A DNA stretch of 64,000 bases from Bacteroidales bacterium (GTDB lineage: Bacteria > Bacteroidota > Bacteroidia > Bacteroidales > P3): positions 124,001 to 188,000 of the forward strand of contig JAFURZ010000010.1 of NCBI GenBank assembly GCA_017480785.1, written 5' to 3'. Made by a program: the position numbers and the translations under genes. The notes beneath the pieces are model-generated. The model was not told the DNA's origin and ran no database searches. It saw only the letters and a list, made by a program, of their open reading frames with translations. Each line of letters opens with the position of its first letter. Position 1 is the first letter of the stretch. Positions 3,990 to 63,048 of the stretch are shown here, one piece after another.

Positions 3990-4035
3990 GTTCTTTTAGA
4001 AAAGTAAAAGAACAGTAAAAGAATACAGAAAGAAC
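3990..4035. repeat. 11-bp phased palindromic repeat, copy 1
   Basis: A 24-nt core (3990-4013) begins GTTCTTTT and ends AAAAGAAC, its reverse complement. It is followed by two further 11-bp units, AGTAAAAGAAT and ACAGAAAGAAC, each matching the right half-site at 11-bp spacing. Related arrays occur at 8954, 17099, 22096, 26486, 36811, 44197, 57618 and 63003. Confidence 0.75.
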
Positions 4036-4094
4036 AGAGGGAAAAAGGGGGGCGTGGAGAACGAAAAAAGGGGACCTTTGGTGGTCCCCCTGGG

Positions 4095-4168
4095 TGACTC
4101 CTGCAGGATTCAAACCTGCAACCTTCTGATCCGTAGTCAGATGCTCTATTCAGTTGAGCTAAGGAGCC
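4095..4168 (-). tRNA. tRNA-Arg (anticodon ACG)
   Basis: The 74-nt cloverleaf on the minus strand has acceptor GGCTCCT paired with AGGAGTC (one G-T), D arm AGCTCAACTGAATAGAGC, an anticodon stem-loop CTGACTACGGATCAG with anticodon ACG, and T arm GCAGGTTTGAATCCTGC. The discriminator base is A; the genome continues with CCC, so the CCA end is not encoded. It lies between an 11-bp repeat array and the GNAT gene. Confidence 0.93.
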
Positions 4169-4318
4169 GAACTGCTTTTGGGAAGCTCTCTTCCTTGAAA
4201 GCGGGTGCAAAAGTACTAACTTTTCCGATACTGGCCAAATTTTTTTTTGATTTTTTTCTTCCTCCGTCCGCAACCGCCTGATTGATAGTGGTGATAGGGG
4301 AGTGAAAAAATGGTCCGG

Positions 4319-4840
4319 TCAGGCTGTTTCGCCGTACACTTCGCGGTAGAGGAGGGTGCGTATTTCGTTAAATTCGTCGTCGTCGAGTTCGTATTTCGAC
4401 ATGATTATCATCGGCACGGTGCGTCCGTCGTGGTGGTAGGAGGGCTGCACGTAGGGCTGCGGGTTGTGGTAGAAGCCCATGGAGGCGTAGAATTCCACGC
4501 GGTGGTCGGCCTCTTCGGTGTTGGGCAGCTCCACTTCGAGCACCACCTGCTCGGTCTGCTGCGAGAGGAAGTTGAGGAAGACGGCTTTGCCGAGTCCCTG
4601 GTTGCGGAGTTCTTCGGCGATGGCGAAGTGCTCCACGTAGATGAGTTCGTCGAAGGTCCAGTAGGTGAGTATGCCTACCGGCTCGTCGCCGTTTTCGGCC
4701 ACGAGGAAGTGGAATTTGCCGGCATCGCGCTGCCGGAGAATAGAGAAGGGCGGGCGTTCCTGCTCGGGGAACGCCTCTTCGAACAGGTCTTGTGCGAAAT
4801 GCGAATGGTCGCTGTCTTCCAGGTTGGTAAAGGTGATCAT
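4319..4840 (-). CDS. GNAT family N-acetyltransferase
   Basis: This is a 173-residue protein with the GNAT fold pattern. The central strand LIYVEHFAIAEELR is followed by the acetyl-CoA-binding motif A segment RNQGLGKAVF (near residues 77-86), then VVLEVELPNTEEADHRVEFYASMGF, the typical late beta-strand plus helix ending in Y-x-x-x-G-F. The acceptor substrate cannot be told. Its start overlaps the stop of the upstream outer-membrane-like gene by 4 nt (ATGA), so it is translationally coupled and last in the 7534-4319 operon. The operon link to a sigma factor is positional only. Confidence 0.8.
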   Translation of the reverse strand: MITFTNLEDSDHSHFAQDLFEEAFPEQERPPFSILRQRDAGKFHFLVAENGDEPVGILTYWTFDELIYVEHFAIAEELRNQGLGKAVFLNFLSQQTEQVVLEVELPNTEEADHRVEFYASMGFYHNPQPYVQPSYHHDGRTVPMIIMSKYELDDDEFNEIRTLLYREVYGETA

Positions 4841-5751
4841 TTTATAAAGCTGAAATTGTTTATTTCAAATCGTATGCCGAGCATGTGCTGCCACCCCCAG
4901 GCGGTGTAGGGGTCGACGGTCCCGTCAGTCCCTGTGCCGCCTTTGAGGACGGTCTTGCTTTGGTAGCAGGTGTAGCCGGCCTTGATGGCTCCCACTGAGG
5001 GGATGGAGTAGCCCAGCAGGACGCTGATGAAGACGCCGTAGCCGATGCCCCCTTGGTTGATGTATTCGTAGCTGCCCACGCCGTAGTCGGGCGACTGGCC
5101 GTCCCACACGTCGAGGATGGAGTAGGTGGCGCCGCCCACCTCGATGAGGTTGTCCTGCACCTTGGTGTTGATGAGCGAGGCGCCGAGGTTGATTTCGAGG
5201 TCGAGCGTGGAGGAGAGCCGGGCGGTCTTGGCGAGGGCGAAGTCGATGCTGATGCGCTCCTCCTTGCCGAGGATGCCGCAGCGGATGTAGGGGTCGTTGC
5301 CGAGGATGCTGGCGCCGTTGTCGCTGCTGAGGTTGAAGGCTCCGATGGCATTCAGGCGCGTCAGGTCGAAGCGCAGCAGCCATCCGAAACCCGAGGTGTA
5401 GTCGTAGCGCAGGCCGAGGCCTATCTGGTAGCTGATGCGGTAGTACATGTCGGCGTATTCCACCACCTGCAGCTGGTTGTAGCTTCCGATGGTCGAGGGC
5501 GAGATGGCGCCCTGGTTGACCAGGTGCTGCCATATCTGGGTGCCGTAGGTGCTGCTGTGCAGCACGCGGTCGATGGTGTTCGCGTTGGAGGGGTGGCCGT
5601 TGTAGAAGTTGGCCGTGTTGTTGCTGGCCCAGAAGGCGCCGGCATTGGCGAAGAAGGAGAGGCCGGTACTGGGAGGCTTGCCGTCGTCGGCGGTGGCGGT
5701 GGCCGAGGCGGCAAGCAGGAGGGTGGCGGCGATGAGGGCTATCCGTTTCAC
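4837..5751 (-). CDS. Outer-membrane beta-barrel-like protein
   Basis: This is a 304-residue protein with a signal peptide (MKRIALIAATLLLAASATATA). The mature part alternates polar and aromatic/hydrophobic residues in strand-length runs (YRISYQIGLGLRYDYTSGFG, WLLRFDLTRLNAIGAF, RISIDFALAKTARL, GYGVFISVLLGYSIPSVG) and ends in a short strand, INNFSFIK, as barrel proteins often do. No named family was recognised. It overlaps the upstream ECF sigma gene by 4 nt and the downstream GNAT gene by 4 nt, so all three are likely co-translated from one mRNA. The role is unknown; a membrane target or partner of the sigma factor is possible but only inferred from position. Confidence 0.65.
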   Translation of the reverse strand: MKRIALIAATLLLAASATATADDGKPPSTGLSFFANAGAFWASNNTANFYNGHPSNANTIDRVLHSSTYGTQIWQHLVNQGAISPSTIGSYNQLQVVEYADMYYRISYQIGLGLRYDYTSGFGWLLRFDLTRLNAIGAFNLSSDNGASILGNDPYIRCGILGKEERISIDFALAKTARLSSTLDLEINLGASLINTKVQDNLIEVGGATYSILDVWDGQSPDYGVGSYEYINQGGIGYGVFISVLLGYSIPSVGAIKAGYTCYQSKTVLKGGTGTDGTVDPYTAWGWQHMLGIRFEINNFSFIK

Positions 5752-6359
5752 AGCTCGACTCCTTTCTTCTTCACGATGGCGGCAAGCAGCTCTTTGGCCC
5801 GCATGAGGCGTATCTTGACTGTGCCGAGGGGTATGCCCAGCTTCGAGGCTATCTCCTCGTAGCTGAGGTCGTCATAGTAGCGCAGGCGCACTATCTGGCG
5901 GTAGGGCTCCTTCAGCCCGTCGACAATGGCCTTCAGGGTCTCGTCGCGCTGCATGCGGATGAGGGCCTCCTCGGGGTTGGGCTGGTTGGAGGGTATCTGG
6001 TATTCGATGTATTCGCCGTCGGGCGTGTGCTCCGCGGCGCTCAGCGGCACGGTGTCGAGGCGCTTGCGGCGCAGCTGGTCGATATACAGGTGCACGCCGA
6101 TGCTGTAGAGCCAGGCGCTGAAAGTGGAGGTGGGGGCGTAGCGGTGCAGCTGCATGAAGGCCTTGCCGAAGGTCTCGATGGTGAGATCGGCGGCCGTCGT
6201 GGTGTTGCGGGTCATGCGGAGCAGCAACAGGTAGAGCGGCTCGCGGTAGGCGGCCATGAGGTCGGCAAAGGCCTTGTGGCTGCCCTCGTCGCGTGCGGCA
6301 CACACGAGCTGGTAGTCGTGTTGCAGGCGCTCCTTTGTTGCTGTCGCGGTGTTCTCCAC
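5748..6359 (-). CDS. RNA polymerase sigma factor, ECF (sigma-70) family
   Basis: This is a 203-residue protein. Region 2 is seen at about residues 33-105 (AYREPLYLLLLRMTRNTTTAADLTIETF ... FSAWLYSIGVHLYIDQLRRKR, including the -10 recognition helix). Region 4 is seen at about 150-195 (LKEPYRQIVRLRYYDDLSYEEIASKLGIPLGTVKIRLMRAK), a helix-turn-helix for the -35 element. It directs RNA polymerase to alternative promoters. No anti-sigma factor gene adjoins it: the neighbours are a glycosyltransferase (2 nt upstream) and an outer-membrane-like protein (4-nt overlap downstream). Control may therefore be by transcription from the promoter at 7558 or by a factor encoded elsewhere. Confidence 0.9.
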   Translation of the reverse strand: MENTATATKERLQHDYQLVCAARDEGSHKAFADLMAAYREPLYLLLLRMTRNTTTAADLTIETFGKAFMQLHRYAPTSTFSAWLYSIGVHLYIDQLRRKRLDTVPLSAAEHTPDGEYIEYQIPSNQPNPEEALIRMQRDETLKAIVDGLKEPYRQIVRLRYYDDLSYEEIASKLGIPLGTVKIRLMRAKELLAAIVKKKGVEL

Positions 6360-6361
6360 TT

Positions 6362-7534
6362 CTATTTTTTGAACTTTCTGTTGTTGGGTAACGGCAAAAG
6401 TATCAAAATAGTATTTGCGAGTGCAAAATAAATTTCATACAGGGGTGCGGCGAGGTGTACGTGCCCCCCCTCGAAACGCTTGGTGAGTCGGGAGAAGCTC
6501 ACGATTTGCCAGGCCCATTTCAGCGCCATGGCGGCGGCTACGACGACCCACGGGAGGGTGCCGCGCAGCACCAGCAGCACGGCAGCGGCATAGAAGAGGA
6601 GGCTGGCCCAGCCGGGCAGGCTCTCGCGCAGCCGGTCGCCCAGGCGGTGCCGGTTGCGCGTGGCCACGCGGTGGCGCCGCTCGTCGTGCCACTGGTAGAA
6701 GTGCTTCCGCGGCTCAACCGCCAGGCAGGCGTCGCTGTCGATGCAGATGGTGGTGTTCCTGCGGGTGGCGTTCTGGTAGACGAACAGGTCGTCGCTCCCG
6801 TCGGCCACGTCGTAGTGGCGTATGAAGGCCCCCTGGCTGAAGAAGAAGGAGCGCCGGTAGCTGAGGTTGCGGCCCGAGCCGGTGTAGGGGTGCCCCAGGA
6901 GGGCGGCCCCCAGGTATTGGGCGCCGTAGGCCAGGGCGTCGTACTGCTGCAGGCAGCCCAGCAGGGTCTTGCTGCGCTTCACGCCGCAGTAGCCCAGCAC
7001 TATCTCCACTCTCCGCTCTCCGCTCGCCACTCCCTGTTCGCGGTAGCCGCGCACCATGCCGCGCAGCCACAGCAGGTTCTTCGGCGTGCAGTCGGGGTCG
7101 GCCAGCATCAGGATGTCGTTCTTGGCGCTCTTGATGCCGATGGAGAGGGGGTATTTCTTGCCCTGGAAGAGGTTCACGTCCTCCTTGAAGGGCACCACCT
7201 TCAGGTGGGGGTAGTAGTCCTTGAGCAGCTTGAGGACAAACTCGGTCTCATCGGTCGACAGGTAGTTGACCACGACCACCTCGAAGTCGGGGTAGTCCTG
7301 CTCGAGCAGGTAGACCAGGTTTTCCTTGAGCCAGGCGGCGTCGTTGCGGGCGGTGAGCACCACGCTCACGGGCGGCAGCTGGTCGTCGTCGGTCTTGCCT
7401 TTCCGCTCGGCCAGACGCCCCACGCGAAAGTGGTACAGCCCGTAGTAGAAACACAAATATATCATGGCCGCCAGCGTCACCGCCGCCAGCGCAACAGCAT
7501 AGCTATCAGTGAGAAAATGACTGAAGTCGAACAT
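6362..7534 (-). CDS. Membrane-anchored family 2 glycosyltransferase
   Basis: The product has 390 residues from the start at 7534. The frame extends further upstream to 7582, but that would place the start beyond the promoter at 7558-7565, so the ATG at 7534 (MFDFSHFL) is preferred. There is one N-terminal membrane segment (ALAAVTLAAMIYLCFYYGLY), a GT-A domain with PPVSVVLTARNDAAWLKENL and a metal-site DPDC in LMLADPDCTP, then QQYDALAYG, and two C-terminal membrane segments (LLFYAAAVLLVL, WVVVAAAMALKWAW). The donor and acceptor are unknown. Residues ~168-178 (VASGERRVE) are encoded by a GAGAGTGG-type low-complexity stretch that recurs elsewhere. It heads the operon with sigma factor, outer-membrane-like protein and GNAT. 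Confidence 0.85.
   Translation of the reverse strand: MFDFSHFLTDSYAVALAAVTLAAMIYLCFYYGLYHFRVGRLAERKGKTDDDQLPPVSVVLTARNDAAWLKENLVYLLEQDYPDFEVVVVNYLSTDETEFVLKLLKDYYPHLKVVPFKEDVNLFQGKKYPLSIGIKSAKNDILMLADPDCTPKNLLWLRGMVRGYREQGVASGERRVEIVLGYCGVKRSKTLLGCLQQYDALAYGAQYLGAALLGHPYTGSGRNLSYRRSFFFSQGAFIRHYDVADGSDDLFVYQNATRRNTTICIDSDACLAVEPRKHFYQWHDERRHRVATRNRHRLGDRLRESLPGWASLLFYAAAVLLVLRGTLPWVVVAAAMALKWAWQIVSFSRLTKRFEGGHVHLAAPLYEIYFALANTILILLPLPNNRKFKK
7004..7034. repeat. GAGAGTGGA-type low-complexity repeat inside a coding sequence
   Basis: On the minus strand the gene reads through GGAGTGGCGAGCGGAGAGC and GGAGAGTGGAG, encoding about ten residues (VASGERRVE). Similar purine-rich stretches lie in the coding DNA at 11169-11225 and 51314-51345 and between genes at 26711-26745. 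Confidence 0.5.
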
Positions 7535-7557
7535 CTTTGCACTTTGTTTTCCAGCCG

Positions 7558-7565
7558 CAAAGATA
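7558..7565 (-). promoter_or_regulatory. Promoter -7 element for the glycosyltransferase-sigma operon
   Basis: The minus strand reads TATCTTTG, matching TAnnTTTG, about 24 nt before the chosen start at 7534. The implied 5' leader is short (roughly 15-20 nt). Confidence 0.6.
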
Positions 7566-7657
7566 CACAATAAACCCCGCATGGCGAAGAGCCCCGCAAT
7601 GAAAATATCAACACATAATAAACATCTACATTAATTCAAACGGCTTAGTATATTTAT

Positions 7658-7801: not shown

Positions 7802-7812
7802 CAGGCAGCAGG

Positions 7813-8953: not shown

Positions 8954-8999
8954 GTTCTTCAGGAGTTCTTTACAAATCCGTAAAGAACTCCTAAGGAAC
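8954..8999. repeat. 11-bp phased palindromic repeat, copy 2
   Basis: A 24-nt core at 8965-8988 starts GTTCTTTAC and ends GTAAAGAAC. One 11-bp unit precedes it (GTTCTTCAGGA, 8954-8964) and one follows it (TCCTAAGGAAC, 8989-8999), so both arms extend at 11-bp spacing. It sits in the divergent region between corA and the lipoprotein gene at 9117. Confidence 0.75.
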
Positions 9000-9065
9000 T
9001 CCTGTAAAATATATTGATAAACAGGCAATTTGATATTTGTTGCACACGGTGTTGTTTTTTTTCTG

Positions 9066-10663: not shown

Positions 10664-11474
10664 TAACAACTACGAACTCTGGCTGGTGCGCTATGCCGAC
10701 GGCTGCCTGACGGCCGACGAGCGCGAGGCCGTGGAGCAGTGGCTCGAGGGGCACCCCGAGGCTGCCGAGGAGCTGGCCCTCTATGGCGAGGCGCCGCGGC
10801 TGGAGCGCGACGAGAGCGTGAGGTATGTCGCACAGCAACACACCCGGCCCCTGTGGCCTGCCGTGTTGCGCTGGAGTGCCGCCGCTGCCGTGATCCTGCT
10901 GCTGCTCTCGCCGGTGGTGTGGCACAATGCCGCTCCGCAGGAGGAAGGGATGCAGGTGGCGCAGGTGCGCGAGGTGCCGGCAGTCGACACCCTGCCGACG
11001 GCTCCCGCCGCTGTCCCCATGGCCACTCCTGCCAAACCGGAAGCTCCCTCTGCGATGCCGAGGGAGGAGAAGCCTACCGAGCCGCAGCGGCAGTTGGAGG
11101 AGGCCGAGAACTACCTGCCTACGCGCCCCATGGTGCTGCAGCCCATGCCGGTGGCTGAAGCCGAGGAGGTGGAGAGAGGTGAGTGGATAGAGGAGAGTGG
11201 AGAGTGGAGAGAGGGGAGTGGAGAGCCGCAGATGGTCTATGTCGACAACCTCTTTGTCGAGGACACCCTCGACGACCTGGAGCAGCGCCTGCTGTCCCTC
11301 AACAACGATGTGCGCGAGGGGTTGCAGGGTACCTACCTGGGACGCCGTCTGGCCCGCCGCCTGCTGGACGACGAGGAACTGCTGGCCCGCGTCGACGAGC
11401 GTCGCCAGCGCACACCCCGCGGCCTGCGCATGGTGGCCGATTTCATCAGCACATACAGTGAAGTAAACAAATAA
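10647..11474 (+). CDS. Probable membrane anti-sigma factor
   Basis: This is a 275-residue protein. The N-terminal ~70 residues are soluble and acidic with an anti-sigma-like helical pattern (YELWLVRYADGCLTADEREAVEQWL). A single membrane helix follows (LRWSAAAAVILLLLSPVVW, about residues 74-92), then a Pro/Ala/Glu-rich periplasmic part. No zinc-binding His/Cys anti-sigma motif is seen. It overlaps the sigma gene by 17 nt, which is the main reason for the call. Residues ~175-193 (ERGEWIEESGEWREGSGE) are encoded by a GAGAGTGGA low-complexity repeat and probably form a flexible linker. Confidence 0.65.
   Translation: METINDNNYELWLVRYADGCLTADEREAVEQWLEGHPEAAEELALYGEAPRLERDESVRYVAQQHTRPLWPAVLRWSAAAAVILLLLSPVVWHNAAPQEEGMQVAQVREVPAVDTLPTAPAAVPMATPAKPEAPSAMPREEKPTEPQRQLEEAENYLPTRPMVLQPMPVAEAEEVERGEWIEESGEWREGSGEPQMVYVDNLFVEDTLDDLEQRLLSLNNDVREGLQGTYLGRRLARRLLDDEELLARVDERRQRTPRGLRMVADFISTYSEVNK
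11169..11225. repeat. GAGAGTGGA-type low-complexity repeat in the anti-sigma gene
   Basis: Units such as GGAGAGTGGAGAGTGGAGAG repeat in frame and encode alternating Glu/Gly/Trp/Ser/Arg residues. The stretch looks unlike the flanking coding DNA and like the intergenic stretch at 26711-26745. Confidence 0.55.
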
Positions 11475-15231: not shown

Positions 15232-16490
15232 AGCGATTGGCCATTAGCGCGCTGCTCCTGCTGGCGGCAGGCAGCCTGTGGGCCCAGCAGCCCCTCAAGC
15301 CGCGCCCCGACGCCTTCCCGCCGGCGCCCGAAGCCATAGGCTCCAAGGCGGTGACTATGGCCGCCTTGGTCGACGAGATGGCCGCGTGGGACCGTTATCC
15401 GACCTACGAGACCTACCTTGCCATGATGCAGCGATGGGCCGAGCGCTATCCCGACCTGTGCACCATCGACACCATCGGCACCTCGGTCAGGGGACGCCTC
15501 ATCCTGGCGGCACACATCGAGGGCAACCGCTCCCTCGACCTCTACAGGCCCCAGTTCTTCTACTCCTCTACCATCCATGGCGACGAGGTGACGGGCTACG
15601 TGATGATGCTCCGCCTCATCGACACGTTGCTGGCCAGTTACGGCACCAGCCAGCGGCTCACCGACCTGGTCGACGAGACGGCCATCTACATCAACCCCCT
15701 GGCCAATCCCGACGGCGCCTACTGGCAGGGCAACCAGAGCGTGCAGGGCTCCATGCGCTACAACGCCAACTGGGTCGACCTCAACCGTAACTATCCCGAC
15801 CCCTTCGGCGGAGCCAAGGCCGCGGTGGAGCAGGAAAACGAGGCCATGATTGACTACTTCACCGCCCATCGCTTCCGCCTGAGCGCCAACCTGCATGGCG
15901 GTAGCGAGGTGATGAACTATCCGTGGGACTGCTTCACGTCGTTGCAGAACCCGCACCCGCAGGCCGGCTGGTGGAAAGGGGTGTGCAAGCGCTTTGTCGA
16001 CACCGTGCGCACCTACAATAACACACTCTTCCGCGACGTCGTCTCGAGCGGCATCATCGCCGGTGGCGACTGGTATGTCATCCACGGTGGCCGCCAGGAC
16101 TACGTGAACTACTACCACGACTGCCTCGAGGTGACCATGGAGGTGTCGACCGTCAAGACCCTCTCGTCCGACCTTTTGCCGGCCTACTGGAACGCCCTCG
16201 GCCACTCGTTCATCAACTACATCGCCGAGGTGCACAACCTGCCCGAAGGGGTGGGCATCGCCGACGGCCAGCCGTCCGCGACAGGTGCGCGACTCGCCGT
16301 CTATCCCAACCCTGCCACCGGACAGGTGACCGTCCAGGGACTGGAGCCCGATGCCGAGGTCTGCATCCTCGACCTCGGCGGCCGATGCCTGTACCGAGGC
16401 ACCGGTCCCACCCTCGACCTGAGCGCCCTCCCTGCCGGCGTCTATACCCTCCAGGCCGGCGGCCGCAGCACCCGGATAATAAAAAAATAA
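15228..16490 (+). CDS. Secreted M14-family zinc carboxypeptidase with T9SS tail
   Basis: The protein has 420 residues from the ATG at 15228, which overlaps the HMA stop by 4 nt. Signal peptide MKRLAISALLLLAAGSLWAQ. The peptidase M14 domain shows the zinc ligands HGDE (in SSTIHGDEVTGY) and the later His in ANLHGGSEVMNYPWD, plus the substrate-binding VDLNRNYPDPFGG. The last ~70 residues (LAVYPNPATGQVTVQGLEP ... LPAGVYTL, ending in IIKK) form a T9SS sorting domain, so it should be secreted. Products are free C-terminal amino acids from peptides. Position behind the receptor/HMA genes suggests cotranscription; a direct link to metal handling is not shown. Confidence 0.88.
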   Translation: MKRLAISALLLLAAGSLWAQQPLKPRPDAFPPAPEAIGSKAVTMAALVDEMAAWDRYPTYETYLAMMQRWAERYPDLCTIDTIGTSVRGRLILAAHIEGNRSLDLYRPQFFYSSTIHGDEVTGYVMMLRLIDTLLASYGTSQRLTDLVDETAIYINPLANPDGAYWQGNQSVQGSMRYNANWVDLNRNYPDPFGGAKAAVEQENEAMIDYFTAHRFRLSANLHGGSEVMNYPWDCFTSLQNPHPQAGWWKGVCKRFVDTVRTYNNTLFRDVVSSGIIAGGDWYVIHGGRQDYVNYYHDCLEVTMEVSTVKTLSSDLLPAYWNALGHSFINYIAEVHNLPEGVGIADGQPSATGARLAVYPNPATGQVTVQGLEPDAEVCILDLGGRCLYRGTGPTLDLSALPAGVYTLQAGGRSTRIIKK

Positions 16491-17098: not shown

Positions 17099-17144
17099 GT
17101 TCTTTTACTTTTCTAAAAGAACAGTAAAAGAACAGCAATAGAAC
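17099..17144. repeat. 11-bp phased palindromic repeat, copy 3
   Basis: The 24-nt core (17099-17122) starts GTTCTTTTAC and ends CTAAAAGAAC. Two 11-bp units follow: AGTAAAAGAAC (17123-17133) and AGCAATAGAAC (17134-17144). It lies between convergent genes, behind the terminator at 17024-17060. The cores at 44197 and 63003 are identical to this one. Confidence 0.75.
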
Positions 17145-17157
17145 AATAGTATAACTG

Positions 17158-18009: not shown

Positions 18010-18037
18010 TTAAACTTTAAACATTAAACTTTAAACA
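18010..18037. repeat. 7-bp tandem array upstream of pyrI
   Basis: Four perfect-phase units, TTAAACT TTAAACA TTAAACT TTAAACA, fill the spacer between the pyrB stop (18039) and the pyrI start (18005), directly at the ribosome-binding position. Confidence 0.7.
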
Positions 18038-18038
18038 T

Positions 18039-18956
18039 TTATTTTGCGCCGAGGATGGCCGCCATGAGTGCCTGACGGACGTAGACACCGTTCTGTGCCT
18101 GCTGGAAGTAGTAGGCATAGGGGGTGCGGTCCACGTCGGTGGTAATCTCGTTGACGCGGGGCAGGGGGTGCAGCACGCGCATGTTGGGTTTGCAGCCTTG
18201 CAGCATGTCGGCGCTGAGGATGCAGCTGTCTTTCACGCGCTCGTACTCCATGGGGTCGGGGAAGCGCTCGCGCTGCACGCGGGTCATGTAGATGATGTCG
18301 GCGGTGGGGATGATGTCGCGCAGGTCGGTGTACTGGTAGTACTTGAGGCCGGCGTCCTTGATGCTCATCTTGACGCTGGAGGGGAGTTTGAGCTCCTGGG
18401 GCGAGACGAGGTGGAAGGTGGCGTTGAAGTTGCACATGGCCTGCACGAGGCTGTGCACGGTGCGGCCGTACTTGAGGTCGCCGACGCAGGCTATCTGCAG
18501 GTTCTCCAGGGTGCCCTGGGTCTTGCGGATGCTGTAGAGGTCGAGCATGCACTGGGTGGGATGCTGGTTGGCACCGTCGCCGGCGTTGATGACGGGCACC
18601 GAGGCCACCTCGGAGGCATAGCGGGAGGAGCCCTCCTTGGGGTTGCGCATCACGATGAGGTCGCTGTAGGAGCTGACCATGACGATGGTGTCGTGAAGCG
18701 ACTCGCCTTTCTGGACGCTGGTGCCGCCGGGGTCGGAGAAGCCGATGATACGGGCTCCCAGTTGGTTGGCGGCGCTCTCAAAGCTCAGTCGCGTACGCGT
18801 AGAGGGCTCGAAAAAGAGGGTTGCGACCACTTTGTCCGATAAGATTTTCTGCTTGGGGTTCTTCTCGAATCCTTCGGCAATGTCCAGCACCTCGATATAC
18901 TCTTCCTTCGAGAAGTCGGTGATGGAAATCAGGTTGCGTCCTTTTAAAGTGCTCAT
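18039..18956 (-). CDS. pyrB: Aspartate carbamoyltransferase catalytic subunit
   Basis: This is a 305-residue protein of normal length. It has the carbamoyl-phosphate loop STRTRLSFESA (near residue 52), the HPTQ motif in GANQHPTQCMLDLYSI, and the late HPLPRVNEI loop. It makes N-carbamoyl-aspartate from carbamoyl phosphate and aspartate in the cytoplasm. With pyrI directly behind it, the enzyme is the allosteric class B type. The upstream neighbour on the same strand is a TPR lipoprotein gene (29 nt gap). Confidence 0.96.
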   Translation of the reverse strand: MSTLKGRNLISITDFSKEEYIEVLDIAEGFEKNPKQKILSDKVVATLFFEPSTRTRLSFESAANQLGARIIGFSDPGGTSVQKGESLHDTIVMVSSYSDLIVMRNPKEGSSRYASEVASVPVINAGDGANQHPTQCMLDLYSIRKTQGTLENLQIACVGDLKYGRTVHSLVQAMCNFNATFHLVSPQELKLPSSVKMSIKDAGLKYYQYTDLRDIIPTADIIYMTRVQRERFPDPMEYERVKDSCILSADMLQGCKPNMRVLHPLPRVNEITTDVDRTPYAYYFQQAQNGVYVRQALMAAILGAK

Positions 18957-22095: not shown

Positions 22096-22141
22096 GTTCT
22101 TCGGTTGTTCTTCGGTTGTTCTTCGGTTTTTGCCGAAGAAC
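22096..22141. repeat. 11-bp phased repeat, copy 4
   Basis: Three identical tandem 11-bp units GTTCTTCGGTT (22096-22128) are followed after a 4-nt gap by the inverted CCGAAGAAC (22133-22141). It lies between the obg stop (22182) and the PAP2 start (22058) on the minus strand. It could fold as a hairpin in the obg 3' transcript, but no T-run follows. Confidence 0.75.
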
Positions 22142-22181
22142 AAGCGGCGAAGAGTGGTTGAAAAGCCTGAGAAATAGTGGA

Positions 22182-26485: not shown

Positions 26486-26542
26486 GTTCTTTTACTGTTC
26501 TTTTACTGTTCTTTACGAATTTGTAAAGAACGCGTAAAGAAC
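26486..26542. repeat. 11-bp phased palindromic repeat, copy 5
   Basis: Two units GTTCTTTTACT (26486-26496 and 26497-26507) run directly into a 24-nt core (26508-26531, GTTCTTTAC ... GTAAAGAAC), followed by GCGTAAAGAAC (26532-26542). It lies in the 447-bp divergent region between nrnA and the cyclophilin gene. That region also holds the nrnA promoter and a GAGAGTGG-like purine stretch (26711-26745); no gene was seen in it. Confidence 0.75.
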
Positions 26543-27229: not shown

Positions 27230-27922
27230 ATGAATTTAGGAATCAAATTGCTGGTTGCCGAGGACGACCCGAACTTGGGTACCATCCTGAAGGCTTATCT
27301 GACCCAGAAGGGTTACACGGTGGTGTGGGCGAAGGACGGGGAGGAGGCGTTGACTTGTTTCGACGAGGAGGATGTGGATGCCTGCATACTGGACGTGATG
27401 ATGCCGGTGAAGGACGGTTTCGCGGTGGCGAAGGAGATAAGGAAGGTTGACAAGAAGGTGCCCATCATCTTCTTGACCGCCAAGAACCTGGAGGAGGACA
27501 AGTTGAAGGGTTTCGAGGTGGGAGCGGACGACTACATGACGAAGCCGTTCTCGATGGAGGAGCTGCTGGCGCGGTTGAACGCGACGATGCGGCGCTCGTT
27601 CAATGAGGACCGGCCGGACAAGAATGTGTTCCGGATAGGAAATTTCACGTTCGACTATGTGCACCAGACGTTGACGATAGGCGACACGGTGCAGCGGTTG
27701 ACGGCGAAGGAGTGCGACCTGCTGCGTATCTTCGCCATCAATTTCAACCAGTTGGTGGACCGCAACACGACGCTGCAGAAGATTTGGAAGGACGACAGCT
27801 ACTTTGCGGCGCGTTCGATGGATGTGTATATCACGAAGCTGCGGAAGTACCTGAAGGCTGACCCGACGGTGGAGATTGTGAATGTGCACGGGGTAGGGTT
27901 CAAGCTGACGCACAAGGAGTAG
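27230..27922 (+). CDS. OmpR-type response regulator, RprY-like
   Basis: This is a 230-residue protein. The receiver domain is at residues 5-120, with acidic pocket EDD (11-13), phospho-acceptor Asp55 in CILDVMMPVKDG, Thr in IFLTAKN and Lys in YMTKPFS. The winged-helix OmpR DNA-binding domain follows (LTAKECDLLRIFAINFNQLVDRNTTL, AARSMDVYITKLRKYLK, VNVHGVGFKLT). No histidine kinase gene adjoins it, so it is an orphan in this window. It resembles Bacteroides RprY from memory; the kinase would be elsewhere. Confidence 0.9.
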   Translation: MNLGIKLLVAEDDPNLGTILKAYLTQKGYTVVWAKDGEEALTCFDEEDVDACILDVMMPVKDGFAVAKEIRKVDKKVPIIFLTAKNLEEDKLKGFEVGADDYMTKPFSMEELLARLNATMRRSFNEDRPDKNVFRIGNFTFDYVHQTLTIGDTVQRLTAKECDLLRIFAINFNQLVDRNTTLQKIWKDDSYFAARSMDVYITKLRKYLKADPTVEIVNVHGVGFKLTHKE

Positions 27923-36810: not shown

Positions 36811-36907
36811 CCATTTTAACGGTAGTATTACGGTAGTATTACGGTAGTATTACGCTTTTAAAGCGTAATACTACCGTAATACTACCGTAATACTACCGTT
36901 AAAATGG
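36811..36907. repeat. 97-nt near-perfect palindrome of 11-bp units, copy 6
   Basis: Three identical units GGTAGTATTAC (36821-36853), a centre GCTTTTAAAGC (36854-36864) and three inverted units GTAATACTACC (36865-36897) are bracketed by CCATTTTAAC and GTTAAAATGG. Only the central base is unpaired. It starts 11 nt behind the truB stop on the minus strand and lies upstream of the atpD promoter. No T-run follows on either side. Confidence 0.9.
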
Positions 36908-37781: not shown

Positions 37782-38585
37782 CTAGATTAACGGGATGACG
37801 ATGGTGGCCAGGCCTACCACGGCACAGTAGAGGGCGAACCAGATGAGCTTGCCGCGCTTGACGATGTTAATCATCCACTTGCAGGCCAGGCATCCGCACA
37901 CGAAGGCGGCCACGAAGCCGACGGCGAGCGAGAGGGGCGGCAGGCCGGCCATGGCCTGGCTGACGCCCATTTCGGCCATGTCCTTCACGTCGAGCAGGGC
38001 TTCGCCGAGGATAGGCGGTATGACCATCAGGAAGGAGAACTGGGCCAGACGCTCTTTCTTGTTGCCCAGCAGGAGGCCGGTGGCGATGGTGGAGCCCGAG
38101 CGCGAGAGGCCCGGCAGGACGGCCAGGGCCTGGGCGATGCCGATGATGAAGGCGTGCAGCGGCGAGATGTTCTCGCGCTGGCGCGGCTTGGCCCAGTAGC
38201 TGAAGGCGAGCAGCAGGGCGGTGATGCAGAGGCAGATGCCCACCACGAGCAGGCCGCTGCCGAAGATGGCTTCCACCTTGTCTTTGAAGAAGAGGCCCAC
38301 GATGCCGACGGGTATCATGGAGATGAGGATGTTGACGATGTAGCGGGTGCCTTCGTTCCAGCGCCACTTGAAGAGGTCGGTGAAGAGCCACACTATCTCG
38401 CGCCAGAGGATGACGATGGTGCTGAGGACCGTGGCCACGTGGACGGCGACGGTGAAGGTGAGGTTCTCCTCGCCGCTGAGGCCGAAGAGGTGGGCCCCGA
38501 TGGCGAGGTGGCCGCTGCTGCTGACGGGCAGATACTCGGTGAGTCCCTGGATGATGCCCAGGACAAGTGCTTCAAACCATTCCAT
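37782..38585 (-). CDS. uppP: Undecaprenyl-diphosphatase
   Basis: This is a 267-residue integral membrane protein with about eight helices. The BacA/UppP motifs are [15 protein letters not shown] (residues 14-28) and [16 protein letters not shown] (catalytic Arg/Ser region). It recycles the undecaprenyl-PP carrier for peptidoglycan and surface glycan synthesis and gives bacitracin tolerance. It follows DUF3098 in the conserved Bacteroidetes cluster, separated from it by a 7-bp repeat array. Confidence 0.95.
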
Positions 38586-38588
38586 TTT

Positions 38589-38714
38589 GGTTTACGGTTT
38601 ACGGTTTACGGTTTACAGTTTACGGTTTACGGTTTACTGTTTAAGGTTTAAGGGTTGTCGGCATCGGGTGCGGCAAATCCATTTAACAGTAAACGGTAAA
38701 CAGTAAACGGTAAA
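38589..38714. repeat. Inverted arrays of a 7-bp unit (GTTTACG / CGTAAAC)
   Basis: Nine tandem 7-bp units (GTTTACG with A, T and AAG variants) at 38589-38653 face four or more inverted units (CAGTAAACGGTAAAC twice) at 38684-38714, with a ~30-nt spacer. It fills the gap between the DUF3098 stop (38717) and the uppP start (38585), so the uppP mRNA leader would carry a long stem-loop. Confidence 0.8.
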
Positions 38715-38716
38715 CT

Positions 38717-44196: not shown

Positions 44197-44253
44197 GTTC
44201 TTTTACTTTTCTAAAAGAACAGTAAAGAAACAGCAAGGAAACGGCAAAGAGAC
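44197..44253. repeat. 11-bp phased palindromic repeat, copy 7
   Basis: The 24-nt core (44197-44220) starts GTTCTTTTAC and ends CTAAAAGAAC, identical to copies at 17099 and 63003. Three increasingly diverged 11-bp units follow (AGTAAAGAAAC, AGCAAGGAAAC, GGCAAAGAGAC). It lies in the 349-bp divergent region before ftcD, which also holds two promoters and the repeat at 44313. Confidence 0.75.
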
Positions 44254-47601: not shown

Positions 47602-47880
47602 CTACATTCCGAACAAATCGGCGTGTGTGCCGGTACGCATCAACACGAGCTGCAACATAAGGTCGTCTTTGCGGTACATCAACAGCCAGTTGGGTTGGAT
47701 GTGGCACTCACGGAAGCCGCGGAACTCGCCTTTCAGCGCATGGTCTTTGTTGGCGGCTGGCAAAGGTTGGTCGGTGGCAAGAAGCTTAATGACCTCATTA
47801 AGCTTCTCCTCGGGAAGTTTGCGGCGGAGAGCCAATTTTAGGTCGCGCTTGTACTGCGACGTAAAGACAATCTGCCTCAT
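47602..47880 (-). CDS. YafQ-type (RelE superfamily) mRNA interferase toxin
   Basis: This is a 92-residue protein. It aligns by eye with E. coli YafQ: KDHALKGEFRGFRECHIQPNW (two conserved His and the Gly/Arg loop), LLMYRKDDLMLQLVLMRTGT and the C-terminal THADLFG containing the catalytic His. YafQ toxins cut mRNA on the ribosome. The start overlaps the antitoxin stop by 4 nt, the usual antitoxin-first order. Length is normal, and the reading frame is intact. Confidence 0.9.
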   Translation of the reverse strand: MRQIVFTSQYKRDLKLALRRKLPEEKLNEVIKLLATDQPLPAANKDHALKGEFRGFRECHIQPNWLLMYRKDDLMLQLVLMRTGTHADLFGM

Positions 47881-49297: not shown

Positions 49298-49316
49298 AGA
49301 TATATGCACTAAAAAA

Positions 49317-49412
49317 GGGCAAGCTGTTTATATCGCACCGCTACAACCAAACACCCTTGCTGTATTCCTACCCTGGGGGATTCAATGGGAGCTGGTCGTA
49401 TAAGACTTGCCC
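49317..49412 (-). ncRNA. ffs: Bacterial small SRP RNA (4.5S-like)
   Basis: The 96-nt minus-strand RNA closes with GGGCAAG/CTTGCCC, then TTATA/TATAA and CGACC/GGTTG. Its apical part reads CAGG-GTA-GGAA-TAC-AGCA, the domain IV symmetric loop (CAGG/AGCA), a short helix and the GGAA tetraloop that binds Ffh. TTTTTT (49311-49316) directly follows the 3' stem and serves as terminator. A TATTTTTG promoter element lies about 55 nt upstream (49467-49474), so a short 5' leader is probably trimmed. Confidence 0.92.
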
Positions 49413-49466
49413 AAAACTATTGAAATACAGGTTAATTCCTGTGTTCTCATGTTCTCGTTCAGATTG

Positions 49467-57617: not shown

Positions 57618-57697
57618 GTTCTTCGGTAGTTTTACGGTAGTATTACGCTTTTTTCCCGAAGAACAGTAAAAGAACAAGCGTAAAACTACCGTTGAAA
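57618..57697. repeat. 11-bp phased repeat, copy 8
   Basis: Left arm: three 11-bp units GTTCTTCGGTA, GTTTTACGGTA and GTATTACGCTT (57618-57650). Right arm: CCGAAGAAC, AGTAAAAGAAC and AAGCGTAAAAC then TACCGTTGAAA (57656-57697). The units mix the motifs of copies 4, 5 and 6. It lies in the 468-bp divergent region between mce and nadE, in which no gene is seen. Confidence 0.75.
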
Positions 57698-57875: not shown

Positions 57876-59432
57876 ATGAAGGTACATATAGTTCAGCATG
57901 ATGTCCGCACGTTGCGGATGGAGGAGAACGAGGAATGGATTTTGAAGGAGCTGGAGTCGCAGGAGTCGAAGGATGCTTTGTTGACTGTGTTCCCGGCCTG
58001 CACCGTGTGCGGAGCGCCGTTGTTTGCTGCGGCGGGCTACACTGACGTGCAGAAGCGGGCGCAGGGGGTGCTTCAGGAGCTGATAGCGCGGTCGGAGCAC
58101 CGTGCCTTCCTGGTGGGCATGCCGTTGCAGATGCAGGAGAAGGGGCTGTGCAACGCCTTGGTGTTTGTGCAGAACTGCGCCATCCGCGGGGTGGTGACGA
58201 AGAAGTACCTGACGGTGGACGAGCAGAAGTATTTTGTGCGCGGCGAGGGTGTGCAGGTGATTGACTTCCACGACCAGCGCATAGCGATAGGTTTCTACGA
58301 GGACCTGAAGGAGTTGTCGAAGGGTTATGTGGAGCAGCCTGATATGGTGGTGTGCTGCGGGAGCCAGGTGTTTGACTACCAGAAGCCGTACCGCATTCGC
58401 TACCGGATGAGCAAGATAGTGGAGACGCTGAATGCGAGCCTGGTGTATGTGAACCGCACGGGTGGCGAAGGGAGCTACCTCTATGCGGGTGGGTCGATGG
58501 CGATGAACGCTGCCGGTGGAGTGTTGTGCCAGCTGCCTTACTTTGAGGAGGCCTGCGAGACGATCGACATGCAGGAGCTGGAGACGGTGGATGACGAGAA
58601 GCCGGAGGCGGTGGAGCTGGTGTACAAGGCGCTGGTGTGCGGCATACGCGATTACTTCCACAAGAACGGGCAGGGGCGGGCGGTGCTGGGCCTGAGCGGC
58701 GGCATCGACTCGGCGCTGGTGGCTGTGCTGGCGGTGGACGCGCTGGGTGCGGAGAATGTGCACGGCTTGCTGATGCCGAGCCAGTATTCGACCGACCACT
58801 CGGTGAAGGATGCTGTGGATTTGGCGGACAACCTGGGCATGAAATACGACATTGTGCCTATTCGGGCCATGTTCGACGAGTTTGCCAAGGCCCTGAAGCC
58901 CGTCTTTGGCGACCGGGCCGAGGACGTGACGGAAGAGAACCTGCAGGCACGCATCCGCGGCACGCTGGTGATGAGCTATGCGAACAAGTTCGGCGCGTTG
59001 GCGTTGAATACTACAAACCGGAGCGAGGCTGCCATGGGCTACGGTACGCTGTACGGCGACTCGTGCGGGTCGCTGGCGGTGATAGGCGACCTGTACAAGA
59101 CAGAGGTGTACGAACTGAGCGAGTGGATTAACCGCGACGGGATAAGGATACCGCAGAACAGCATTGACAAGGCTCCGAGCGCGGAACTGCGACCGGGGCA
59201 GAAGGACAGCGACTCGCTGCCCGACTACGGGGTGCTCGATGCGATACTGGCTCTCTACCTGGACGAGAACATGACCGAGGAGGAGATTGTGGCCGAGGGT
59301 TATGACAGCGCCACGGTGCAGCTGGCCATCCGCAAGACGCGCCAGAATGAGTGGAAGAGGCTCCAGTTTGCCCCACAGCTGAAGGTGAGCCCGATGAGCT
59401 TCGGTCTGGACCGGCGGTGGCCGATTAGTTGA
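57876..59432 (+). CDS. nadE: NAD+ synthetase with degenerate glutaminase domain
   Basis: This is a 518-residue protein. The C-terminal synthetase half is intact: PP-loop SGGIDS (274-279), TTNRSEAAMGYGTLYGDSCGSLAVIGDLYKT-type region and KAPSAELRPGQKDSDSLPDY. The N-terminal ~240 residues have the nitrilase (glutaminase) fold, but the catalytic triad looks broken. The Glu of FPE is Ala41 (TVFPACTV), the Lys is kept near 109-110 (KKYLTVDEQKYF), and the Cys of the ICED motif is Tyr141 (IGFYEDL). It may therefore use free ammonia. It makes NAD+ from deamido-NAD and ATP. No nearby glutaminase gene was seen. Confidence 0.92.
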   Translation: MKVHIVQHDVRTLRMEENEEWILKELESQESKDALLTVFPACTVCGAPLFAAAGYTDVQKRAQGVLQELIARSEHRAFLVGMPLQMQEKGLCNALVFVQNCAIRGVVTKKYLTVDEQKYFVRGEGVQVIDFHDQRIAIGFYEDLKELSKGYVEQPDMVVCCGSQVFDYQKPYRIRYRMSKIVETLNASLVYVNRTGGEGSYLYAGGSMAMNAAGGVLCQLPYFEEACETIDMQELETVDDEKPEAVELVYKALVCGIRDYFHKNGQGRAVLGLSGGIDSALVAVLAVDALGAENVHGLLMPSQYSTDHSVKDAVDLADNLGMKYDIVPIRAMFDEFAKALKPVFGDRAEDVTEENLQARIRGTLVMSYANKFGALALNTTNRSEAAMGYGTLYGDSCGSLAVIGDLYKTEVYELSEWINRDGIRIPQNSIDKAPSAELRPGQKDSDSLPDYGVLDAILALYLDENMTEEEIVAEGYDSATVQLAIRKTRQNEWKRLQFAPQLKVSPMSFGLDRRWPIS

Positions 59433-59490
59433 TTTCTAAATTCTAATTTCTAATTTCTAATTTCTAAATTCTAATTTCTAAATTCTAATT
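59433..59490. repeat. 7-bp tandem array (TTCTAAT/TTCTAAA) behind nadE
   Basis: About eight units of TTTCTAA/ATTCTAA fill the spacer between the nadE stop and the next start at 59506. Units keep a strict 7-bp period. Confidence 0.75.
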
Positions 59491-59505
59491 AAGAATAAAA
59501 TCAAT

Positions 59506-61032: not shown

Positions 61033-61053
61033 TGAGGTGGAGGTTGGAGGAGA

Positions 61054-61089
61054 AAAGGAGTAAAGTAGTAAAGGAGTAAAGTAGAAAGA
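61054..61089. repeat. 8-bp tandem array before the acyltransferase gene
   Basis: Units AAAGGAGT, AAAGTAGT, AAAGGAGT, AAAGTAGA run with an 8-bp period up to 3 nt before the ATG at 61093. They also offer several AGGAG-like segments. An in-frame TAA lies within the array (61069-61071). Confidence 0.65.
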
Positions 61090-61092
61090 CCA

Positions 61093-61944
61093 ATGTATAT
61101 TTTGTCGGACATACTCTATCTGGTGGTCTACTATGTGGTGGGCTACCGGCGGCGTGTGGTGCGGGAGAACCTGAAGGCCTGCTTTCCCGACAAGAGCGAG
61201 CAGGAGCGGCGTCGCATCGAGCGCCGCTATTACCGCTACCTGTGCGACCTGCTGATGGAGGGGGTGTATAACGTCTTTTTCGCCACGCCGCCCTACCTGA
61301 AGCGCCACTACCGGATGGTGAACCGGCAGCTGGTGGACCGCTACTACGAGCAGGGGCGGACGGTGGTGCTGATGTCGGCCCACTACGGCAACTGGGAGTA
61401 TATGGTGTCGTCGCTCAACATGCAGCTGCTGCATCACGGCATCGGGGTGGGCAAGCCCTTGGACGACAAGAGCGTGGCCGAGTTCATCACCCGTCGGCGC
61501 ACACGCTACGGCACCCAGGTGGTCGACCAGACCGATGTGCGCGAGCATGTGGCCTTCTTCGACGAGCATCGCGTGCCGTGTGCGCTGATGATGCTCAGCG
61601 ACCAGTCGCCCAGCAACCCGCACCGCAGCTACTGGACCACCTTCCTGGGACGCGACACGGCTTTCCTCTACGGTGCCGAGCACTTTGCCCGCAAGTATGA
61701 CTATCCGGTGCTCTACTACAGCGTCAAGCGTGTGCGGAGGGGCTACTACGAGGTGACCTTCAGCCAGCTCTGCGAACATCCGCTGGAGGTGCCGCAGTAC
61801 ACCATCGTCGAAAGCTATGTGCGCCGGTTGGAGCGACAGATAACGGAGCAACCCGAATACTGGCTTTGGAGCCACCGGCGCTGGAAACTGACGCGCAACG
61901 GCCGTATCCGCAAGGACGGTACCATAAAAATCATTGAAAACTGA
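61093..61944 (+). CDS. Lipid A biosynthesis-type (LpxL/HtrB family) acyltransferase
   Basis: The protein has 283 residues from the ATG at 61093. The family features are YRRRVVRENLKACFPDKSEQERRRIERRYYRY near the N-terminus, SAHYGNWEYM (the HX4D/E-type active-site motif), and DQSPSNPHRSYWTTFLGRDTAFLYGAEHFARK. It transfers an acyl chain to a lipid A precursor or related lipid at the inner membrane. The N-terminus begins at DILYLVVYYVVGYRRR and lacks the ~20-residue hydrophobic stretch usual in Bacteroides relatives; the 8-bp array with a stop sits at that place. It is followed by a glycosyltransferase gene. Confidence 0.85.
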   Translation: MYILSDILYLVVYYVVGYRRRVVRENLKACFPDKSEQERRRIERRYYRYLCDLLMEGVYNVFFATPPYLKRHYRMVNRQLVDRYYEQGRTVVLMSAHYGNWEYMVSSLNMQLLHHGIGVGKPLDDKSVAEFITRRRTRYGTQVVDQTDVREHVAFFDEHRVPCALMMLSDQSPSNPHRSYWTTFLGRDTAFLYGAEHFARKYDYPVLYYSVKRVRRGYYEVTFSQLCEHPLEVPQYTIVESYVRRLERQITEQPEYWLWSHRRWKLTRNGRIRKDGTIKIIEN

Positions 61945-61954
61945 GAACGGAAAA

Positions 61955-62971
61955 GTGAAAACAGCTGTCGTCATACTCAACTGGAACGGACGCGGGATGC
62001 TGGAGCGCTTCCTGCCATCGGTGACGGCCCATAGCGCCGCGGCCGACGTGGTGGTGGCCGACAATGGCTCGACCGACGACTCGGTGGCCTTCCTACAGGC
62101 CCGCTATCCCCAAGTGAAGCTAGCTCAACTCGACAAGAACTACGGCTTTGCCGAAGGCTACAACAAGGCCATGAAGGCGCTGGAGGCAGACTATGACTAC
62201 TATGTGCTGCTGAACAGCGACGTGGAGTGCACGCCGCAGTGGCTGGAGCCCGTGGTGGCGATGATGGAGTCCGACCCGCAGATTGCCATTGCGCAGCCCA
62301 AACTGTTGATGTACGACCGGAAGGACACGTTCGAGTATGCCGGCGGCGCAGGCGGATTCATCGACCGCTATGGCTATCCTTTCTGCCGCGGGCGTCTCTT
62401 CTCGACCTTGGAGAAAGACCATGGCCAATACGACGACCCGTGCGATATCTTCTGGGCCACCGGAGCCTGCATGTTTGTCCGCGCCAGCGTGTGGAAAGCG
62501 TTGGGCGGGCTGGATGGCGACTTTTTTGCCCACATGGAGGAGATTGACTTCTGCTGGCGTGCCCACCTGGCAGGCTACCGCGTGTGCTACTGCCCGCAGT
62601 CGACGGTGTATCACGTGGGCGGAGGCACGCTGCCCAAGTCCTCGCCGTTCAAGACGGAGCTCAACTTCCGCAACAACCTATCCATGCTCTACAAAAACCT
62701 GCCCGAGGAGCGCCGCGGCTGGGTGCTGGCCGCCCGCATGTGGCTCGACCGCGTGGCGGCCGTCAAGTTCCTTCTCGAAGGCCATGTGGGCGAGTACCGC
62801 GCCGTACGCAAAGCCCACAGGCAATACCGGGCGTGGAAGCCGCAGCTGCGAGAGAAACGCCGAAAGAACGGCACCCATCCCGTATCAGAAGTCTACCTCG
62901 GATGGCTGCTCCCCGAATACTACCTTCTGAGACGCACGGAATTCACCTCCCTGAAGGGCCGGTTTTCCTAA
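61955..62971 (+). CDS. Family 2 glycosyltransferase (rhamnosyltransferase-like)
   Basis: The protein has 338 residues from the GTG at 61955, which gives the family-typical start MKTAVVILNWNGRGMLERFL; a TTG at 61934 inside the previous gene is less likely. GT-A motifs are VVVADNGSTDDS, YYVLLNSDVECTP (metal site SDV), WATGACMFVRASVW and GDFFAHMEEIDFCWRAHLAGY (ED motif). It has a C-terminal segment WVLAARMWLDRVAAVKFLL that may bind the membrane. It lies 10 nt behind the acyltransferase, so both may act in surface lipid or glycan assembly. Confidence 0.9.
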   Translation: MKTAVVILNWNGRGMLERFLPSVTAHSAAADVVVADNGSTDDSVAFLQARYPQVKLAQLDKNYGFAEGYNKAMKALEADYDYYVLLNSDVECTPQWLEPVVAMMESDPQIAIAQPKLLMYDRKDTFEYAGGAGGFIDRYGYPFCRGRLFSTLEKDHGQYDDPCDIFWATGACMFVRASVWKALGGLDGDFFAHMEEIDFCWRAHLAGYRVCYCPQSTVYHVGGGTLPKSSPFKTELNFRNNLSMLYKNLPEERRGWVLAARMWLDRVAAVKFLLEGHVGEYRAVRKAHRQYRAWKPQLREKRRKNGTHPVSEVYLGWLLPEYYLLRRTEFTSLKGRFS

Positions 62972-63002
62972 ATTCATATTGACGTACAATTGATTAAATG
63001 CT

Positions 63003-63048
63003 GTTCTTTTACTTTTCTAAAAGAACAGTAAAAGAACAGCGACGGAAC
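63003..63048. repeat. 11-bp phased palindromic repeat, copy 9
   Basis: The 24-nt core (63003-63026) starts GTTCTTTTAC and ends CTAAAAGAAC, identical to copies at 17099 and 44197. Units AGTAAAAGAAC (63027-63037) and AGCGACGGAAC (63038-63048) follow. It lies upstream of the dnaB promoter. Confidence 0.75.

Follow-up and report, generated by a model that had tools for sequence, protein, structure and literature searches.

What are the sets of short units, repeated in steps of 11 bp, that lie between the genes of a Bacteroidales genome at nine places in one stretch of 64,000 nucleotides? This stretch (the window) corresponds to positions 124001-188000 of contig C1 in a genome of 2.25-Mb in 19 contigs, which probably belongs to a Bacteroidales of rumen origin (G000; other G numbers denote related genomes, and L numbers denote sampled loci or stretches). 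The half-site of these arrays, its spacing, and the dispersal, location and turnover of the arrays can be read from the sequence and are described first. The explanation that we favour, with some reserve, is that the sites would be phased arrays bound by an oligomerising protein, and that each species would have copied and homogenised its own set.

Nine phased arrays between genes

The nine sites listed in the initial annotation are each readable at their places, with no strand assigned to any of them, and with a site finder that combines lag-11 runs with spaced half-sites and the cores of the families, the window yields nine merged sites and no extras, all overlapping the listed ones. However, the patterns of the finder were derived from these very families, so this agreement would not be an independent test. 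A lag test free of any sequence pattern, which counts strict self-match segments at each lag, gave five segments at lag 11 in the window and none at lags 9, 10, 12 and 13. Sites 17099, 22096, 26486 and 36811, four of the nine, have such segments; units farther from the centre are degenerate and inexact. Also, GTTCTTTTACT with at most one mismatch has 11 matches in the window, against a mean of 0.45 and a maximum of 3 in shuffles; one of the 11, at 15554, lies within a called gene and has no array.

Four of the sites belong to family B and have one 24-nt core in common, known from the annotation at 17099, 44197 and 63003, where it is indeed identical, and present at 3990 as the same 24-mer on the opposite strand. 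In site 3 (17099-17155, convergent gap), the core at 17099-17122 is followed by the right units AGTAAAAGAAC, AGCAATAGAAC and AATAGTATAAC; in site 9 (63003-63052, upstream of a dnaB-like gene), the core at 63003-63026 has the right units AGTAAAAGAAC and AGCGACGGAAC; in site 7 (44197-44253, divergent gap), the right units after the core at 44197-44220 are degenerate; and in site 1 (3990-4046, downstream of tRNA-Arg), decaying 11-bp units run from 4014 after the core at 3990-4013. The two family B2 sites are both in divergent gaps. Site 2 (8954-9010) has the core GTTCTTTACAAATCCGTAAAGAAC at 8965-8988 with one 11-bp unit per side and a weaker one on the right, and site 5 (26486-26542), upstream of cyclophilin and RprY-type genes, has two GTTCTTTTACT units at 26486-26507 and the core GTTCTTTACGAATTTGTAAAGAAC at 26508-26531. 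With these, the six GTTCTTT-type cores of 24 nt are all present, and site 4 (22096-22152, family C) brings to seven the sites with this 24-nt geometry, here with GTTCTTCGG arms, in the order two GTTCTTCGGTT units, core GTTCTTCGGTTTTTGCCGAAGAAC at 22118-22141 and one weak right unit.

A unit type common to all nine sites, as first supposed, does not extend to the remaining two, which have other half-sites (GTATTAC, GTTTTAC). Site 6 (36812-36906, family A, listed above as 36811) is a palindrome with three CGGTAGTATTA units in each arm, in the truB/atpD gap and upstream of the atpD promoter-like TATnTTTGCA. Site 8 (57618-57697, mixed, divergent gap) reads GTTCTTC-N4-GTTTTAC-N4-GTATTAC-N11-GAAGAAC-N4-AAAGAAC-N4-GTAAAAC-N4-GTTGAAA, where the inner pair spans 25 nt and the spacers are of 4 nt throughout, so that the geometry is kept despite unlike half-sites. 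Another way to see the site is as a family-A palindrome that has taken in two other units in phase; under either reading, units of three families stand in one register.

No window site lies mostly inside a called gene (calls from our own hexamer model), and the four sites annotated between divergent genes (8954, 26486, 44197 and 57618) agree with these calls. Moreover, in a survey of 464 kb of G000, comprising the window and 20 stretches, ten of them chosen with family-B copies already known, 53 sites were found, none of them coding. Among gaps of at least 60 bp, arrays occupy 15 of 28 divergent, 6 of 14 convergent and 26 of 125 co-directional ones (divergent versus co-directional, Fisher p 0.0008), and for gaps of 200-600 bp the corresponding occupancies are 14/19 and 14/39 (p 0.011). 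The ten stretches without exact family-B copies hold 15 sites in 200 kb, ~75 per Mb, which may be an underestimate because the stretches with family-B copies are set aside; the window has nine in 64 kb.

The genes flanking the window sites encode CorA, PAP2, Obg, DHH, cyclophilin, TruB, atpD, FTCD, a type IX secretion system (T9SS)-tail protein, a glyoxalase, NAD synthase, a glycosyltransferase and DnaB, and some products are without a Pfam match. Across genomes, comparison of array-flank genes gave two close orthologous pairs, of which atpD is one, as well as a weak match over 62 residues. In eight truB-atpD gaps, the promoter-like TATnTTTGCA-type end stays, with the array present in three and degenerate in one.

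Half-site, spacing and turnover across genomes

The annotation would have fallen if the period had been lost or the copies had been at chance frequency in the whole genome. Genome-wide, the period stays, and the 24-nt dyad (at most three mismatches) is found at 34 places, against none in a backward-read control. The exact family-B core occurs at 23 places, and none of 18 relatives from the genus and 12 from the order has it even with two mismatches allowed; the family-A CGGTAGTATTA palindrome (at most three mismatches) occurs at 45 places and is absent in the 30 relatives. Family C, GTTCTTCGG-N6-CCGAAGAAC, has six copies within the loci examined, and in three of these (L009, L010, L014) a family-B and a family-C element lie 99-111 bp apart in one gap. 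The contexts of family A are co-directional in six cases, divergent in five and convergent in one.

Do these families have anything in common beyond the period? Symmetry plus an outward 11-bp copy, with no motif, served to find 56 dyad arrays, and centre-anchored alignment of 15 distinct dyad families gave a common outward unit, ~N4-G-W-A-R-A-A-C, which corresponds to a half-site of ~GWWRAAC, a 4-nt spacer and a 24/25-bp dyad. The first unit reaches 4.3 bits and the second 5.1, whereas jittering gives a mean of 2.6 (standard deviation 0.39) and 0 of 2000 values as high, in a set that includes two apparently mis-centred dyads (L099 12338 and L111 12423); the four spacer columns of the dyad families are low in information. 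A cross-species heptamer matrix, made from ten relatives' dyads without G000 sequence, was then run along the sequence flanking 27 family-B copies of G000. On each side, the mean score is highest, among the 11 phases, in the predicted one, and the z-scores against the far flank at offsets 4, 15, 26 and 37 are 10.8, 8.9, 9.2 and 2.4 on the strong side and 5.6, 7.6, 3.8 and 0.9 on the weak side.

The spacing appears also in the distances between distinct half-site pairs, counted with G[AT][AT][AG][AT]AC, a half-site that comes from the same data whereas the spacing does not. Direct pairs peak at 11 bp (8 in G000, 9 in the relatives) and 22 bp (8 and 7), with 3 and 1 at 33 bp, and inverted pairs peak at 17-18 bp (5 and 7) and 28-29 bp (7 and 6). 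Pairs in the opposite orientation number at most one at every distance, and the minor distances that reach 3 are inverted 20 in G000 and direct 9 and 18 in the relatives. Within family B, positions 1, 2 and 9-11 of the inner flanking units hold 58-71% of the information in four of five variable units, the outer units being more degenerate. The weak-side consensus, AGCagttAAac, A..TGaAaAaC, we read as AGCA-GTTAAAC, A..T-GAAAAAC, which would be the general half-site in register rather than the strong side in decayed form.

Arrays with this period are found in related genomes. In the dnaN neighbourhood of other genomes (48 loci), lag 11 gave 61 segments, in 29 loci, and lag 7 gave 60, against 9, 15, 2, 1 and 0 at lags 8, 9, 10, 12 and 13; the unit sequences of these arrays differ from genome to genome. 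In a genus sample, with one genome per species as in all the samples, 23 of 59 genomes have three half-sites spaced in 11-bp steps (391 matches, backward control 14). Among the matches listed (G000, G140, G146 and G164), one or few units with their spacers dominate per genome, for example GAAGAAC-AATC in 11/11 of G146 and GAAGAAC-TACT in most matches listed for G140. The searches beyond the genus are based on a sequence pattern and would miss arrays with other half-sites. With this scope, 7 of 198 genomes match in the phylum sample, G000 among them, with three control matches, and in G291 GTTGAAC and GATGAAC are the usual half-sites, with spacers that vary. In the order sample (119 genomes, related pattern, one mismatch), G000 has 52 matches and its control none, and the other 118 genomes have 26 matches, in 17 genomes, against 19 in the backward control, so the pattern is near background beyond the genus, except perhaps in G023 and G088 (four each). 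In 180 kb from other families of the order (twelve stretches), there was neither a lag-11 segment nor a site returned by the site finder.

At orthologous gaps, the arrays are kept and their units rewritten. Between L041 and L055, which have the same neighbour, all units differ (GTTTAAC-type versus GTTCTTT/C-type) with constant CATT spacers, and in L040 this gap is present without an array. L052 and L053 have arrays at one gap, each with a unit reused elsewhere in its own locus, and the difference between L030 and L031 is exactly one 11-bp unit. For three orthologous pairs (L029 is in two), identity is higher in the array than in either flank, with 94% versus 79 and 81%, 87 versus 68 and 77%, and 90 versus 83 and 79%.

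Candidate binders and rival explanations

In the reading that we favour, a DNA-binding protein would recognise a 7-bp half-site, ~GWWRAAC in the outward direction and variable between species. The centre would be a facing half-site pair, 24 or 25 bp end to end, and further half-sites would follow outward each 11 bp on one or both sides, steps that would line up the protomers on one face of the helix over ~60 to 100 bp. Because the arrays are in gaps, chiefly divergent ones, the effect would likely be global, organising or tuning promoter regions. The arrays would spread and stay alike by copying within each species, and this copying would be why few unit sequences are found at many places of a genome and others at the same gaps of a relative. 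The shared register, the spacing peaks, the geometry at 57618 and the enrichment in divergent gaps are sequence evidence for the protein-binding array that the annotation had proposed, and from them we infer binding, oligomerisation and an action on transcription or chromosome structure. More tentatively, and with a probability that we would set well below even, one conserved oligomeric protein of this rumen Bacteroidales genus, with kin perhaps in other Bacteroidia, would nucleate on the 24/25-bp dyad and spread by helical turns at an estimated 100 or more gaps of each genome; meanwhile its recognition sequence would drift, and each species would rewrite its sites in concert, in a drive-like manner.

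Several results weigh against the binding-array reading. The Pfam scan gave no common pathway among the genes flanking the window sites. The distribution is patchy: four of the eight truB-atpD gaps are without an array, the three-half-site pattern is missing from 36 of the 59 genus genomes, and eight genus-relative stretches (141 kb, L074 being all N) gave two lag-11 segments, both in G001. As for the half-site, the relatives' matrix has off-register scores above the predicted ones (offset 1 above 4 on the strong side, offset 28 above 26 on the weak side), and the family-B copies are of common ancestry, so they would count as one strong case and not as 27 independent events; also, the weak unit 2 of family B is most conserved at positions 4 and 5 and not at its ends. 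A consensus over 26 unit clusters, non-dyad arrays included, reaches 5.87 bits versus 5.99 in 12 shuffles (standard deviation 0.26), and a motif common to all unit types was rejected as a general claim, being seen only in the centre-anchored dyad families. A constant-7/variable-4 pattern over 105 arrays is at chance level (z 0.13). Finally, the 4-nt spacers are alike within a species, which binding alone would not need, and between L041 and L055 the array has diverged more than its flanks.

RprY-type and small MerR regulators are candidates for binding the arrays. G000 has two Trans_reg_C genes and one MerR_1 protein, and no HTH_17 match was found in it. An OmpR/PhoB-type response regulator is encoded in the window at 27230-27922 on the plus strand; its best NCBIfam match is RprY, at 306 bits, below the cut-off of 370. 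An array lies upstream of rprY in the three genomes where rprY was seen (G000, L052 and L053), with a different unit in each and, in G000, with the cyclophilin gene between array and rprY. In P. gingivalis, RprY is reported to bind to the promoter of its own gene (PMC3646045). However, the recognition helix of RprY is identical in the three genomes and the units differ, which speaks against RprY as the source of the unit sequence. The sole MerR_1 protein (L207 1486-1797) has 103 residues, which align to about the first 57 of a 274-residue CarH model, and it is present in 52 of the 59 genus genomes, mostly with 48-76% identity to the G000 copy (loci L210-L239). It was not found in G173, with ten array matches, or in G015, with one, and by eye no clear match is seen between its recognition segment and the unit type. 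An 11-bp array is located at L207 1982-2026, downstream of the MerR_1 gene.

Among the rivals, the one that survives best, which we nonetheless consider rather unlikely, holds that the sites are REPIN- or MITE-like palindromes spread by a transposase or gene conversion, with no binding role, and that the 11-bp units arise inside the element. This would account for the near-identical copies of families A and B and their absence from the 30 relatives, for the likeness of spacers within a species, and for the family-A palindromes, in which both arms often carry the matching change (16 copies compared by eye). Also, Y1 transposase genes are present at three places in G000. The RAYT-like Y1 gene at L101 7250-7910 (contig C14) has an array ~0.9 kb away, and one Y1 gene has a family-A copy ~2 kb away. 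On the other hand, the C14 gene has its own repeats on both sides, CCCCTACGGGGC and GTGGGTTTGCACCCAC, unrelated to the arrays by eye, and the other two Y1 genes have no array within 1.5 kb; an automatic inverted-repeat check at the three genes returned nothing and was uninformative. Moreover, spread alone fails to explain the half-site and spacing found across species, the mixed half-sites in one register and the preference for divergent gaps. Of the self-copying palindrome that the annotation gave as its second proposal, the dispersed one-species families stand, whereas some arrays are non-palindromic. A RAYT as mover of the arrays is unsupported, the one Y1 gene with flanks read having different repeats. 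A reverse transcriptase acting as a telomerase-like writer of repeats was also rejected, the one RVT_1 match being near the cut-off and its locus having no array.

Replication slippage with tandem duplication and quasi-palindrome correction, all of it neutral, appears improbable. The one-unit difference between L030 and L031, the greater degeneracy of outer units and the lack of a consensus over all units would be expected from it. Nonetheless, the lengths are discrete, lags 7 and 11 standing far above their neighbours in the dnaN loci; the lag-11 arrays avoid genes (2 of 114 coding by gene calls) whereas lag-7 arrays do not (68 of 134); and the half-site register is common across species.

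RNA hairpins, as terminators or stabilisers of mRNA, are less probable still. Family A folds near-perfectly (-71.8 kcal/mol, z -19), and three other folded sites beat their shuffles (z -4.5 at 57618, -5.1 and -4.3), but the gaps most often occupied are the divergent ones, which are downstream of no gene, and the 45 co-directional arrays have no strand bias (C>G in 22, G>C in 21). Several long arrays, such as L059 15167-15316, have no inverted arm in the viewed stretch. The idea of Rho sites was rejected because the C-over-G bias is missing, with 22 of 45 arrays. Least credible of all is a role in DNA wrapping by gyrase or in the nucleoid, with sites defined by a GC periodicity as in BIMEs or strong gyrase sites: the length of ~100 bp and the period close to one helical turn would suit it, and gyrases have a 10-11 bp periodic GC preference (PMC12324340), but G+C phasing within the units is at chance level (z of 0.02 over 26 clusters and of -1.8 over 95 units) and the dyad arrays share specific bases.

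Other repeats and features were observed along with the arrays. At L204 10496-10726, a 231-bp array of ~20 direct 11-bp GGGTAGTACTA-type units occupies a divergent-called gap beside a Por-secretion-tail protein, and ten proteins scanned as neighbours of long arrays have no regulator in common. Eight viral-contig stretches have three GAAGAAC at 11-bp steps and look like plain tandem repeats in the parts viewed. A separate class of 7-bp tandem arrays (AGTGGGT, AAAATTG, GGAGAGT and GGTTTAC types), often arranged as direct array, loop and inverse array, is found in the window at 7003-7032, 11182-11221, 18010-18039, 38584-38715 and 59430-59490, and at L102 5284-5369, L100 9869-9975 and L095 8280-8316; an open frame runs through the array in four of five translated stretches (L102, L095, L100, window 11000-11400). 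The G+C content of the window is 56-63% per 4 kb and 44% in its first 4 kb. This part (1-4000), which adjoins the tRNA-Arg gene (4093-4168), is possibly an acquired segment, and the protein encoded at 2224-3579 is without a Pfam match. The window also has a RelE/YafQ-type toxin of a toxin-antitoxin pair at 47602-47880 and a Bacteroidales small signal recognition particle RNA at 49313-49419 on the minus strand.

Relation to known systems

ParR/parC partition sites have 11-bp repeats at one locus per plasmid. The arrays resemble them in the sets of 11-bp repeats around a centre and differ in being at many chromosomal sites, and no parM or parR match is present among the flanking genes scanned, no search having been aimed at either. 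A Xer/dif-type site is a single site with a fixed spacer between 11-bp arms; here the inverted distance is 17 or 18, the copies are many and the arms are in tandem.

OmpR/PhoB operators have a 7-bp half-site with a 4-bp spacer, an 11-bp period and cooperative tandem sites, a layout that the arrays may share; for PhoP, the operators are 7-bp direct repeats with a 4-bp spacer (PMC4832192). The direct-pair peak at 11 bp for a 7-bp half-site and the low-information spacers of the dyad families would fit it, but over the 105 arrays variation is not concentrated in four columns. The differences are the inverted 24/25-bp centres, the at most four half-sites per side (57618), the many sites per genome, and units that change between species while the RprY recognition helix is constant in three genomes.

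Operators of CarH, from the MerR family, are three to four tandem 11-bp direct repeats, nnnnTnnACAn, at carotenoid promoters (PMC9304148). They are alike in the 11-bp direct repeats, two short contact zones and degenerate pseudo-repeats, and unlike in the dyads and genome-wide spread found here; also, the unit here is ~N4-G-W-A-R-A-A-C, and the search for MerR_1 proteins in G000 gave no full-length MerR-B12 protein. The MerR-like BldC binds direct-repeat arrays, AATTXXXX(C), as head-to-tail oligomers (PMC5859096). A head-to-tail oligomer on a variable number of repeats would be common to both systems, but the repeat is another one, and the available description of BldC mentions no dyad centre. 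REPINs and BIMEs (PMC3116915) are likewise extragenic, palindromic, dispersed and species-specific, as are the 45 family-A and 34 dyad places with none of 53 surveyed sites coding; they differ from the arrays by the 11-bp half-site grid and the divergent-gap enrichment seen here, and at the three Y1 places no RAYT flanked by arrays was found. Heptamer repeat sets such as TAACTGA are found in Beggiatoaceae and some Bacteroidetes, and in the main species most of them immediately precede start codons (PMC4679880); they are also short intergenic tandem repeats, but with period 7 instead of 11 and one sequence.

In the open-licence literature on 11-bp tandem repeats in Bacteroidetes and Prevotella, no description of these arrays was found, and on this basis they would be undescribed so far. 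If a protein binds them, it would act at many sites of each genome, as a global DNA-binding system. Nucleoid organisation in this group is little known. Moreover, the same gaps and geometry with different letters in relatives would constitute a natural experiment on how a binder and its sites change specificity together.

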